In this document: positions 1,640-41,679 of the stretch, in pieces
Layout: each line of letters begins with the position of its first letter
Numbering within the stretch: position 1 is the stretch's first letter
DNA from: Pseudidiomarina aestuarii
GTDB lineage: Bacteria; Pseudomonadota; Gammaproteobacteria; Enterobacterales; Alteromonadaceae
Length of the DNA: 64,000 nucleotides
Direction: 5' to 3'
Assembly (NCBI RefSeq): GCF_003987355.1
Contig: NZ_PIPR01000001.1
Location: forward strand, 310,001 to 374,000
Made by a program: the position numbers and the translations under genes
The notes under the pieces: model-generated
Seen by the model: the letters and a program-made list of their open reading frames with translations, nothing else
Database searches by the model: none
Told to the model about the DNA's origin: nothing

Positions 1640-1666
1640 ATCGTCTGCTTGGAGATTAAGTCGCTC

Positions 1667-2380
1667 ATGGAAAAACGTAGTGAATTGTACCGGGGAAAAG
1701 CTAAAACAGTCTTTACGACCGACAACCCGGAACGCTTAATATTGCAATTCCGGAATGACACCTCCGCATTCGATGGAGAGAAGGTTGAGCAGCTGGATCG
1801 AAAAGGTATGGTGAATAATAAATTTAATAATTTTATTATGGCCAAACTGGAAGCCGCTGGTATACCTACGCAGCTTGATCAAGTGCTCAGCGACACGGAA
1901 ACCCTAGTTAAAAAATTAACTATGATTCCAGTCGAGTGTGTGGTTCGAAACTTCGCCGCCGGTTCATTAGTACGCCGCTTAGGTGTGACTGAAGGGCAAG
2001 CGTTGAATCCACCGACTTTCGAACTATTCCTGAAGAATGATTCGCTCCACGATCCAATGATAAACGATTCCCACGTGGTTTCGTTTGGTTGGGCGACAGC
2101 CGAACAACTCGCTCAAATGAAAGCACTGACGCTGCGTGTGAACGACGTATTAAGCAAATTATTCGATGCTGGCGGTATGATGCTGGTGGACTTCAAATTA
2201 GAGTTTGGCGTCGACGCTGATGGTACGATTGTCCTCGGCGATGAGTTTAGCCCTGATGGTTGTCGCTTGTGGGATAAAGAAACACGTAAGAAATTGGATA
2301 AAGATCGTTTTCGTCAAGGTTTAGGTGGTGTGGTCGAGGCCTACGAAGAGGTAGCCGCTCGGATTGGGGTACCACTGTAA
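1667..2380 (+). CDS. purC: SAICAR synthase (purine biosynthesis)
   Basis: Phosphoribosylaminoimidazole-succinocarboxamide synthase joins aspartate to CAIR using ATP in de novo purine synthesis. The 237-aa product begins [16 protein letters not shown], matching the start of E. coli PurC ([16 protein letters not shown]), and contains [28 protein letters not shown] and [14 protein letters not shown]. An upstream in-frame TTG at 1649 would add six residues. I prefer ATG 1667, which has GGAG at 1651-1654 and fits the family N terminus. The gene ends only 6 bp before a 7-bp-periodic hairpin repeat. Confidence 0.97.
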
Positions 2381-2386
2381 AACAGC

Positions 2387-2497
2387 GTTACTAGTTACTA
2401 GTTACTGGTTACTGGTTACTAGTTACTAGAGAAGCGATATTTGCTAGTAGCCAATAACTAGTAGCCAGTAGCCAGCAGCCAATAGCTAGTAGCTAAT
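2387..2497. repeat. Heptameric hairpin repeat, copy A
   Basis: The left arm is six perfect 7-mers GTTACTA or GTTACTG (2387-2428). After a 16-base spacer, the right arm is seven 7-mers of the form YARYARC (2445-2493, for example TAGTAGC, CAGTAGC, CAATAGC), plus TAAT. The right arm is the imperfect reverse complement of the left, so the whole can fold into a hairpin of about 45 bp with many G-T pairs in RNA. It lies between purC and the convergent small membrane gene, and its right arm overlaps that gene's stop codon. There is no terminal T-tract on either side, so it is not a standard intrinsic terminator. Two related copies occur in the window. Confidence 0.85.
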
Positions 2498-2618
2498 CGT
2501 TTTTGTCTTCCGGATGCCGTTGCTTCAGTGACGGCATTTTCATATGTGCGGTGTGTTTGAGGAGCATGATATTGCCAATCACCACACCAAATACCAATGC
2601 TAAAATTAGCCAAACCAT
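2493..2618 (-). CDS. Small single-span membrane protein, DUF2897-like
   Basis: This 41-aa ORF starts [20 protein letters not shown] and continues with a KHTAHMKMP segment and a charged tail ending in DKND. One hydrophobic helix (about residues 2-20) followed by K-x-TA-x-MKMP is what I know of the DUF2897 family of short gammaproteobacterial membrane proteins of unknown function. The ATG at 2618 is the only possible start, because an in-frame stop lies just upstream. It overlaps the end of the M15 peptidase gene by 13 bp on the same strand, suggesting translational coupling. Its stop codon lies inside the right arm of the heptameric repeat. It is short enough to be missed by automatic calling. 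Confidence 0.72.
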   Translation of the reverse strand: MVWLILALVFGVVIGNIMLLKHTAHMKMPSLKQRHPEDKND

Positions 2619-25884: not shown

Positions 25885-26763
25885 ATGACGCAAGTAACGA
25901 GTGCGGGTGCACGATTTCGACAAGCTATTGCCGCTAATCAGCCGCTTCAAATTGTTGGAACTATTAATGCCTACACGGCCATGATGGCTGAACGGGTTGG
26001 CCATCAAGCTTTGTATTTATCCGGTGCAGGGGTTGCGAACGCATCATTCGGCTTACCTGATTTGGGCATGACTTCATTAAATGATGTGTGTGAGGATATC
26101 CGCAGAATTACTGCTGCCACATCAGTGCCGTTGCTGGTTGATGCCGATACAGGTTGGGGCGGCGCCTTCAATATTGCGAGAACGGTCAAAGAAATGACGC
26201 GCGCAGGCGCTGCAGGATTTCATATTGAAGATCAGGTCGCGCAGAAACGTTGTGGTCATCGTCCAAATAAAGAGATAGTGACACAAGAGGAAATGGTCGA
26301 TCGTGTTAAAGCTGCTGTTGACGCACGTACGGATGAGCAGTTTTTTATCATGGCTCGTACCGATGCGTTGCAACAACAAGGTCTTGATGCAGCGATTGCG
26401 CGCGCGCAAGCCTGTGTGGATGCCGGAGCCGACGCCATTTTCGCGGAAGCTGTGCACACGCTTGAGCAATACGAAGCATTCACTAAAGCATTGAATGTTC
26501 CTGTGTTGGCGAACATCACTGAATTCGGCCAAACACCACTCTTTAACAAAGCAGAACTTGCGGACGTTGGTGTGGGTATGGTGCTGTATCCATTGAGCGC
26601 GTTCCGTGCGATGAACAAAGCGGCATTAAACGTGTATGAGAGCATTCTGGAGAACGGTGATCAGAAAGCAGTGGTTGATAGCATGCAGACACGCGCAGAG
26701 CTCTATGACTTCCTGAATTATCACGCATTCGAAGAAAAACTCGACTCACTGTTTAAAAAATAA
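25885..26763 (+). CDS. prpB: 2-methylisocitrate lyase
   Basis: PrpB splits 2-methylisocitrate into pyruvate and succinate, the last step of the methylcitrate cycle for propionate. The 292-aa protein has the family signature: VDADTGWGG (metal-binding region), the catalytic QKRCGHR loop near residue 122 and IMARTDA. It follows the GntR gene after a 1-bp gap, with AGGGAAG before the ATG. A heptameric hairpin repeat separates it from prpC. Confidence 0.97.
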
Positions 26764-26767
26764 GTGC

Positions 26768-26864
26768 GCGATTGGTTATTGGATATTAGCTATTAGTGAA
26801 AACCAAAACCAAAGCGCTAGAGCTATCACGATTAGCTAATAGCAAATAGCTAGTAGCGAGTAAC
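26768..26864. repeat. Heptameric hairpin repeat, copy B (between prpB and prpC)
   Basis: Left arm: GCGATTG GTTATTG and then GATATTA GCTATTA, four 7-mers at 26768-26795. Right arm: five 7-mers of the form NARTARC or similar (26830-26864; GATTAGC, TAATAGC, AAATAGC, TAGTAGC, GAGTAAC). The arms are imperfect reverse complements, as in copy A at 2387-2497, with the same 7-bp phase but diverged bases. It sits inside a single operon, so it would be transcribed and could form an mRNA hairpin that affects stability or relative levels of prpB and prpC. Confidence 0.75.
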
Positions 26865-26882: not shown

Positions 26883-28007
26883 ATGGTTGATAAGAAATTG
26901 AGTGGCGCTGGGTTGCGCGGACAGGTTGCTGGCGAAACAGCACTATGCACAGTAGGTAAAAGTGGTTCAGGATTAACTTATTATGGTTATGACATCAAAG
27001 AATTAGCCGAGAAGGTGAGCTTTGAAGAAGTTGCCTATTTGTTAGCCAACGGAGAACTTCCAAAACAAGCCGAACTAGATGCTTACAAAGCTCGTTTGAA
27101 AACTTTACGCGGTCTGCCGCAGGCTCTGAAAGATGTATTAGAGCGCATTCCTGCTGATGCCCACCCCATGGATGTGATGCGGACCGGTTGTTCATTCCTC
27201 GGCAATATCGAGCCAGAGGAAGATTTCAGCCAAGCGGATGCTAAGATTGAGCGGCTATTGGCTGCATTCCCGAGTATTTTGTTGTATTGGTATCGTTTTA
27301 CTCACGATAACGTGCGCATTGAAACGGAGACTGATGACGATTCCATAGGCGCCCATTTCCTGCACCTCCTGCATGATAAGAAGCCATCCAAATTGCACAC
27401 CGATGTCATGAATACATCGTTGATCTTGTATGCTGAGCATGAATTCAATGCGTCGACATTTACTGCGCGCGTGTGTGCGTCGACATTATCGGACTTATTT
27501 TCCTGTGTCACCGGTGCTATCGGTTCATTGCGCGGCCCTCTGCACGGAGGTGCAAATGAAGCTGCTATGGATTTGATTCGTGACATGAAAGATGCAGACG
27601 AAGCAGAGCGCACGTTGATGGGCATGTTGGAGCGCAAAGAAAAGATTATGGGCTTTGGTCACGCCGTTTATCGTGAGTTTGATCCACGTAACGACATTAT
27701 TAAAGGCTGGTCTGAAAAACTGGCACAAGAATTTGGTGATAGTCGTTTATATGATGTATCTGTACGTTGTGAAGACGTCATGTGGCGGGAAAAGAAATTA
27801 TTCCCCAATGCCGACTTCTTCCACGCATCGGCTTACCACTACATGGGTATTCCAACCAAATTGTTTACCCCAATTTTTGTGATGTCACGGGTCACTGGCT
27901 GGACCGCGCATGTGAAAGAGCAACGCGCTAACAACCGTATTATTCGCCCGAGTGCTGATTACATTGGGCCAGCACCTCGCCAAGTACCTGCATTGGCAAA
28001 TCGTTAA
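26883..28007 (+). CDS. prpC: 2-methylcitrate synthase
   Basis: PrpC condenses propionyl-CoA and oxaloacetate into 2-methylcitrate. The 374-aa citrate-synthase-fold protein has RGPLHGGANEAAMDLI (the first active-site His region), FGHAVYREFDPR (second His) and a catalytic Asp near the C terminus in the DFFHASAYHYMGIP stretch. Its length is typical of PrpC rather than the longer type-I citrate synthase. AGAGGGAA precedes the ATG. Confidence 0.96.
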   Translation: MVDKKLSGAGLRGQVAGETALCTVGKSGSGLTYYGYDIKELAEKVSFEEVAYLLANGELPKQAELDAYKARLKTLRGLPQALKDVLERIPADAHPMDVMRTGCSFLGNIEPEEDFSQADAKIERLLAAFPSILLYWYRFTHDNVRIETETDDDSIGAHFLHLLHDKKPSKLHTDVMNTSLILYAEHEFNASTFTARVCASTLSDLFSCVTGAIGSLRGPLHGGANEAAMDLIRDMKDADEAERTLMGMLERKEKIMGFGHAVYREFDPRNDIIKGWSEKLAQEFGDSRLYDVSVRCEDVMWREKKLFPNADFFHASAYHYMGIPTKLFTPIFVMSRVTGWTAHVKEQRANNRIIRPSADYIGPAPRQVPALANR

Positions 28008-41630: not shown

Positions 41631-41679
41631 AAAAAGAGCGCCAGCAGCTACTAGCCAATAGCTACTGGCGCTCTTTTTT
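41631..41679. terminator. Bidirectional intrinsic terminator with a heptad-repeat loop
   Basis: AAAAAGAGCGCCAG and CTGGCGCTCTTTTTT form an outer stem of at least 13 bp, with an A-run before and a T-run after, so it can end transcription in both directions between convergent GH3 and TonB-receptor genes. The loop carries the 7-mer motifs GCTACTA and GCCAATA plus an inner AGCTA/TAGCT stem, so it is also copy C of the heptameric repeat family. Confidence 0.88.
41640..41667. repeat. Heptameric repeat, copy C inside a terminator
   Basis: Four 7-mers, GCCAGCA GCTACTA and GCCAATA GCTACTG, at 41640-41667, in the same phase and sequence style as copies A (2387-2497) and B (26768-26864). Here it is short and sits within the loop of an intrinsic terminator. 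Confidence 0.65.

Follow-up and report, generated by a model that had tools for sequence, protein, structure and literature searches.

The two heptad-built palindromes designated copies A and B in Pseudidiomarina aestuarii probably belong to a genus-wide set of non-coding, dispersed elements of ~95 bp that inserted at gene ends, were subsequently modified by slippage and form hairpins at 3' ends. These elements are dispersed throughout the genome, follow a fixed plan, lie close to stop codons, are present or absent at given sites depending on the species, and are written in distinct "dialects" of the same heptad pattern. Both copies were found in a 64,000-nt stretch of DNA, hereafter referred to as the window, and the evidence presented below comes from the window, the surrounding genome and the genomes of relatives.

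Plan, copy number and distribution of the elements

An excess of heptads is already apparent in the window, where 23 YARYARC pairs with at most one mismatch were counted relative to a shuffle mean of 3.35, with 0/100 shuffles reaching 23. Across the 2.64-Mb genome, 277 exact YARYARC triplets were found (114 forward, 163 reverse), and the reversed-pattern control gave none. In stretches taken around matches, 60 elements combine a left GYTRYTR arm with a right YARYARC arm. Their basic plan consists of AAAAGC, four heptads, a centre of ~23 nt (often AGATCT), four complementary heptads, and GCTTTT; exactly four units per arm are present in 19/60 elements, three of these 19 constituting one tandem trio. 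Centres usually measure 22-24 nt and are near-palindromic, with a consensus near gaaaacacagatctgtgttttc or gaaaacacagatctgcgctcttc. Within the heptad, positions 2 and 5 (A) and 7 (C) are almost invariant and position 4 is nearly always T, while variation at positions 1, 3 and 6 consists almost solely of transitions. Unit number varies in 7-base steps, and the longest one-sided arrays reach up to 20 units. The conserved AAAAGC and GCTTTT ends form terminal inverted repeats, and TTTT was found in 22/58 right flanks and AAAA in 18/58 left flanks, relative to a TTTT background of 4%.

The long one-sided arrays, together with single-arm arrays in relatives, might suggest simple tandem heptamers of the cyanobacterial STRR or Beggiatoaceae TAACTGA type that were expanded by slippage and form hairpins by chance. 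This already disfavoured reading is scarcely credible in the face of 60 elements that possess a left GYTRYTR and a right YARYARC arm around a shared centre, with a basic count of four units per arm. Since the basic plan is fixed at four units per arm, slippage would instead represent a later modification of the dispersed palindromes, not their origin. The six single-arm cases inspected have the appearance of decayed elements, and no transposon was found between separated half elements in these six cases.

A covariance model trained on 20 elements, none of them from the window, added 14 places to the 60 in the P. aestuarii genome (11 of the 14 were inspected), and within the window it recognised only copies A and B and, weakly, copy C. 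In relatives, its matches span the full length of the model (positions 1-95). Members of the family were matched in 18/26 genomes of the genus at E 0.001 or better, with 150 candidates scored per genome and palindromes matching on both strands, the P. aestuarii genome having more matches than any other. A dispersed, hairpin-forming repeat family, as proposed in the first-pass annotation from the window alone, is thus borne out by the triplets, the palindromes and additional places, and the matches in the genus; the search for further copies found many, both in the genome itself and in congeners. A wider sample of 59 genomes from the family comprised P. aestuarii, one other member of the genus and 57 genomes of other genera; only P. 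aestuarii gave matches at 1e-5, and the 57 genomes of other genera had no covariance match at that threshold under stricter filters. The exact YARYARC triplet was found in 17/59 relatives searched (P. aestuarii included), where the next highest genome total was 44, but the reversed control reached 23 in that genome. Likewise, NARYARC x4 was found in 23/369 genomes of the class, P. aestuarii accounting for 251 occurrences (control, 1) and no other genome for more than 23; because the reversed control also scores in several of these genomes, most such cases are plain heptamer runs. Heptad hairpins with the arms reversed (YARYARC first, GYTRYTR second) were observed at three loci (L367, L372 and L373) from other gammaproteobacterial genera, and comparable structures may therefore have originated in other lineages as well.

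Both the words and the presence of elements vary between species. For example, 400 kb of the congeneric genome G010 contains 16 elements written mainly in TAATATC and CAATATC, as opposed to the TAGTAGC, CAGTAGC and TAGTAAC of P. aestuarii. Six distinct P. aestuarii sites were mapped within those 400 kb, and 5/6 are without an element there, the prpB-prpC site being the one that has it.

Several other arrangements were observed along the way. At the starts of contigs C1, C7, C8 and C9 (loci L139, L163, L164 and L166), elements that resemble one another closely come after the 5S rRNA and its terminator. These contig-end copies offer a ready-made set of paralogues within one genome; in the C9 copy, the centre is long and consists of CGAATAA-type heptads. 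At L158, L161, L184, L187 and L195, the centre between the two arms has a further heptad word (GTTATTC, GTTAATC, GTTAGTC) nested in it, and looks as if one dialect began inside another. Three left arms are tandemly duplicated in ~60-bp steps at L185 (C1:1311575-1311800), and three whole elements are tandemly duplicated in 88-bp steps at L146 (C1:602738-602992). Finally, a c-di-GMP-I-GGC riboswitch match (L189:4773-4851) is located a few hundred bases to 1.1 kb from heptad elements.

Placing at gene ends and the copies in the window

The elements are found chiefly beside the 3' ends of genes. Convergent pairs make up 21/53 gene pairs with an element and 23/190 without one (p 2e-5), the remaining element-holding pairs being codirectional (26/53) or divergent (6/53). 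Flanking 3' ends are a median of 10 bp from the element (37/71 within 10 bp) and flanking 5' ends a median of 50 bp (2/41 within 10 bp), with gene positions taken from a home-made caller by which small genes, such as the DUF2897 gene beside copy A, are overlooked.

It is tempting to regard such sequences as ordinary intrinsic terminators acting in both directions, or as 3' hairpins, each of which originated at its own site and whose heptads result only from slippage within hairpins. Intrinsic bidirectional terminators have the A-run before and T-run after the hairpin that part of the elements show, and the same association with convergent genes; the placing after stop codons, the AAAAGC/GCTTTT ends and the resemblance of copy C to a plain terminator also fit. 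In contrast to terminators of independent origin, however, the elements have a ~23-nt centre and a plan of four units in common at many unrelated sites within a genome, match the model over its full length across species, and are found at two sites inside operons, namely prpB-prpC and rpsO-pnp. The recurrent centre and plan, together with the full-length cross-species matches, indicate copying, and we consider an origin site by site unlikely. A counterpoint to a terminator role as such is provided by the 26 codirectional pairs, in which termination would in many cases interrupt an operon.

The features of the window discussed here are collected in Table 1.

Table 1. Heptad elements of the window and their neighbouring genes (positions are those of the window)
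Feature	Positions	Strand	Remarks
purC (SAICAR synthetase)	1649..2380	+	PF01259; stop 6 bp 5' of copy A
Copy A, whole palindromic element, 6 + 7 heptads	2387..2493	.	covariance model E 2e-14
Copy A left arm, six GTTACTR units	2387..2428	+	
Copy A centre, 16 nt, below the usual ~23	2429..2444	.	
Copy A right arm, seven YARYARC-type units	2445..2493	+	
DUF2897 small membrane-type gene, convergent to purC	2493..2618	-	PF11446
prpB-like gene, upstream of copy B	25885..26763	+	PF13714
Copy B, diverged element between prpB and prpC	26768..26864	.	covariance model E 2e-8
prpC-like gene (citrate synthase family), downstream of copy B	26883..28007	+	PF00285
Copy C, terminator-like hairpin, doubtful member	41632..41677	.	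GH3 gene (+) / TonB receptor gene (-) either side

Copy A had been described as six GTTACTR units facing seven YARYARC-type units, and the analysis confirms that architecture. The TAG stop of the DUF2897 gene borrows the final base of the element, and the encoded protein is 41 aa long here vs 50-58 aa in relatives. The purC product has its closest counterparts in P. indica, P. tainanensis, P. donghaiensis and P. woesei (90% amino-acid identity). purC directly abuts the convergent DUF2897 gene in relatives, with a 4-nt stop overlap in 6/7 relatives parsed out of eight, L036 being the unparsed one, and a palindromic element was found at this junction in 0/22 Idiomarinaceae loci judged by eye. 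Copy A is apparently an insertion, absent from relatives. At the corresponding site of I. xiamenensis (L080), a short, unpaired GTTTAGC heptad run is present ~25-60 bases after purC. Copy A was not flagged by a simple terminator scan.

Copy B is likewise a genuine match, in the same style with diverged bases as originally reported: it possesses 4+4 units, more diverged than those of copy A, around a 41-nt centre. The proposed third copy fares less well. The model matches copy C weakly (E 0.015 and 0.19 for the two strands), and its membership in the family is doubtful because its heptads, in a hairpin that is otherwise terminator-like, match the pattern poorly.

Pairing of the arms and polarity of growth

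The spacer containing copy B was compared across 23 genomes of the genus, P. aestuarii included (2/25 prpC loci were unparsed, and one genome is without prpC). In 17/23 genomes the prpB-prpC spacer is 93-199 nt long and folds into a hairpin, while in the other 6 it measures 14-49 nt; the folding z is -2 or lower for 15/17 hairpins and near that of shuffles for 2/17 (z -1.1, -1.7). On the prpC tree, the hairpin extends across most of a 20-genome clade, being missing in G009, G021 and G006, and five other genomes outside this clade have a short or unread spacer. The heptads at this single address are TAATATC in G010, G017, G019 and G023; CGAATAA in G022; AAGCAAC/AAGCAGC in G005; AAACATC/AAACAGC in G008 and G016; and a longer, CGAACAGCGAAGCGCA-type word in G003, G004, G011, G018 and G024. 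Dialects differ even between near sisters, such as G008 and G018 (prpC 93.0% identical) or G011 and G017 (93.3%), the latter pair being a candidate example of dialect switching at a fixed address.

The cross-genome comparison revealed that the arms keep pairing as the words change. Specifically, true arm pairs at the prp site have a mean duplex energy of -41.1 kcal/mol vs -26.3 kcal/mol for arms mixed between genomes, and 0/20,000 permutations over the 17 hairpin genomes were as good as the true pairing. Only in 1/17 rows does an arm pair better with its true partner than with every other arm, because relatives share dialects; co-change therefore occurs at the dialect level and partly reflects shared ancestry. 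A second shared site, in 11 genomes, lies between rpsO, marked by an Rfam match to the S15 leader, and a downstream gene whose product starts VNPITKKFQYG... and which we take to be pnp from its resemblance. True arms at this site gave -39.3 vs -32.2 (p 0.005, 11 genomes). As judged from these spacers, the prpB-prpC site of copy B is an old address at which both arms change together between species.

The first-pass annotation had further proposed that the repeats grow by slippage while keeping pairing, and this is half right. Variation in 7-base steps and the co-change between species at prpB-prpC agree with it; within the genome, the arms are not coupled. Arm unit numbers are uncorrelated (Spearman 0.085, p 0.52, 60 elements), growth being mostly one-sided, and compensatory change between paired units was not found: the variable positions of facing units agreed slightly less often than those of shuffled partners, with match values of 0.593 vs 0.629 when counted from the outside (lower-value p 0.016) and 0.626 vs 0.653 when counted from the centre, in both cases for 44 elements of one replichore, and an earlier test with the replichores mixed was also negative. 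Pairing within the genome is kept because both arms share words, not through unit-by-unit compensation. No RNA strand preference was detected in folding.

The side on which growth occurs is itself biased. The expanded arm is on the side predicted by GC skew in 21/24 placed elements with an arm of at least 6 units, and the orientation of the centre is also biased relative to replication (24/33). It could thus be supposed that replication, through slippage as the fork copies the hairpin, sets the polarity of growth, and not transcription. This agreement looked strong, but all three exceptions are elements between ++ genes of the minus replichore and track gene direction: within that replichore, -- elements have 12 expanded left arms and 0 right, and ++ elements 0 left and 4 right. 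In relatives, a hand tally gave 13 runs for a replication polarity and 9 against, two of the 13 having near-zero skew, and replication-driven polarity was set aside as quite improbable. Among all codirectional elements with unequal arms, those between -- genes are expanded 12 times on the left and once on the right, and those between ++ genes 0 times on the left and 5 on the right (Fisher 7e-4). The promoter-distal arm has a mean of 7.0 units and the proximal arm 4.4 (p 8e-4, 26 elements); this transcription polarity was spotted post hoc, and its p value is nominal. Six codirectional runs in relatives were evenly divided, 3 for and 3 against, and leave it unconfirmed.

Known systems, proposed mechanism and significance

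REP/BIME sequences with RAYT, as portrayed in PMC2817692, are dispersed, species-specific, multicopy intergenic palindromes, as are the elements of Pseudidiomarina; the latter are, in contrast, larger (~95 bp), heptad-built and located in a genome with no Y1 transposase. Mobilisation as REP/BIME elements by a RAYT (Y1) transposase that has since been lost would account for intergenic, palindromic, species-specific sequences that are present in many copies close to gene 3' ends, and a Y1 transposase is indeed present in 17/20 congeners tested. However, the P. aestuarii genome (99.5% complete) yielded 0 PF01797 matches with 2 candidates scored, and G005 is also without a Y1 transposase yet has elements. 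Moreover, the inverted repeats at congener Y1 loci are other sequences (GTAGCCCG..., AGAGGGGGCAGCCC...) and not heptads, as judged among the five longest inverted-repeat pairs per locus in 12/20 fetched stretches, mostly congener Y1 loci. Because Y1 is absent here, and given that the congener Y1-flanking repeats differ, an origin from RAYT-driven REPs was rejected as the main reading and is very improbable, in line with the original opinion that the repeat is not a REP. The congener Y1/RAYT loci (L207-L225) themselves possess ordinary REP-like inverted repeats around the gene.

ERIC, RUP, NEMIS and similar sequences are MITE-like palindromic repeats of ~100-130 bp that insert in intergenic regions and whose mobiliser is often missing. 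The heptad elements are like them in size, palindromy and intergenic insertion, a comparison made from descriptions only, and a 7-bp internal periodicity is not known in those families. As in MITEs, terminal inverted repeats are present, but a target-site duplication was absent in 343 offset/width tests (best z 2.7, with 0 exact matches in the best rows). The missing target-site duplication and the missing Y1 transposase both speak against a classic transposon. The TAACTGA heptamers of Beggiatoaceae, cyanobacteria and Bacteroidetes, according to PMC4679880, are intergenic and lineage-specific, show 7-nt indels between close strains, and are direct repeats located mostly just 5' of start codons, with one indirect repeat in BOGUAY. 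Tandem heptamers and heptamer slippage are common to both systems, whereas the units of Pseudidiomarina are paired inverted arms after stop codons, and not direct repeats only. A match to a described repeat family, which the first-pass annotation gave as a refuting result, was not found in Rfam: at gathering score, the 12 + 6 sources scanned gave no match for the element, and only tRNA, c-di-GMP riboswitch, S15 leader and 5S rRNA were matched. Similarly, a literature search, with subscription journals mostly outside its scope, found no publication on a heptad palindrome family, and a term search of PMC12306157 gave 0 matches. By analogy, the family would act like a REP or MITE-type dispersed palindrome, a likeness and not an assignment.

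The dispersed palindromes may be envisaged to arise and change as follows. A whole unit would insert at or near a gene end by means of a putative mobiliser, for which a search covering Y1 transposase identified no candidate. Following insertion, slippage would add or remove units, for the most part in a single arm. Pairing would survive such one-sided slippage because each unit pairs with nearly every unit of the opposite arm, so compensation is unneeded. Occasionally, whole elements may be replaced or homogenised, and whole-element replacement is proposed to switch both arms together to another dialect at a fixed site. At the RNA level, the element would fold into a stable hairpin at the 3' end, where it would terminate or protect transcripts at the ends of genes, and it may separate segments inside the prpB-prpC and rpsO-pnp operons.

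A more speculative reading, to which we assign a low probability, combines register-independent pairing, word swaps in both arms at fixed addresses and transcription-polarised growth of the YARYARC units of the 3' arm. YARYARC units can be read as repeated ARN triplets, and ARN triplets are the motif of the Hfq distal face; if this reading were true, the element would be a putative, tunable 3'-UTR hairpin for protein binding.

Most dispersed bacterial palindromes are known from a fixed consensus, whereas here a fixed architecture is accompanied by changing words at the orthologous sites of sister species. Because the architecture persists while the words change, the question of whether arm pairing is maintained by selection or by copying can be put directly, and the prpB-prpC and rpsO-pnp sites constitute ready comparative series for doing so. 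If confirmed, growth linked to transcription would allow transcription and replication to be told apart as drivers of repeat expansion. The family can thus serve as a natural experiment on the spread and change of hairpin repeats in bacteria.
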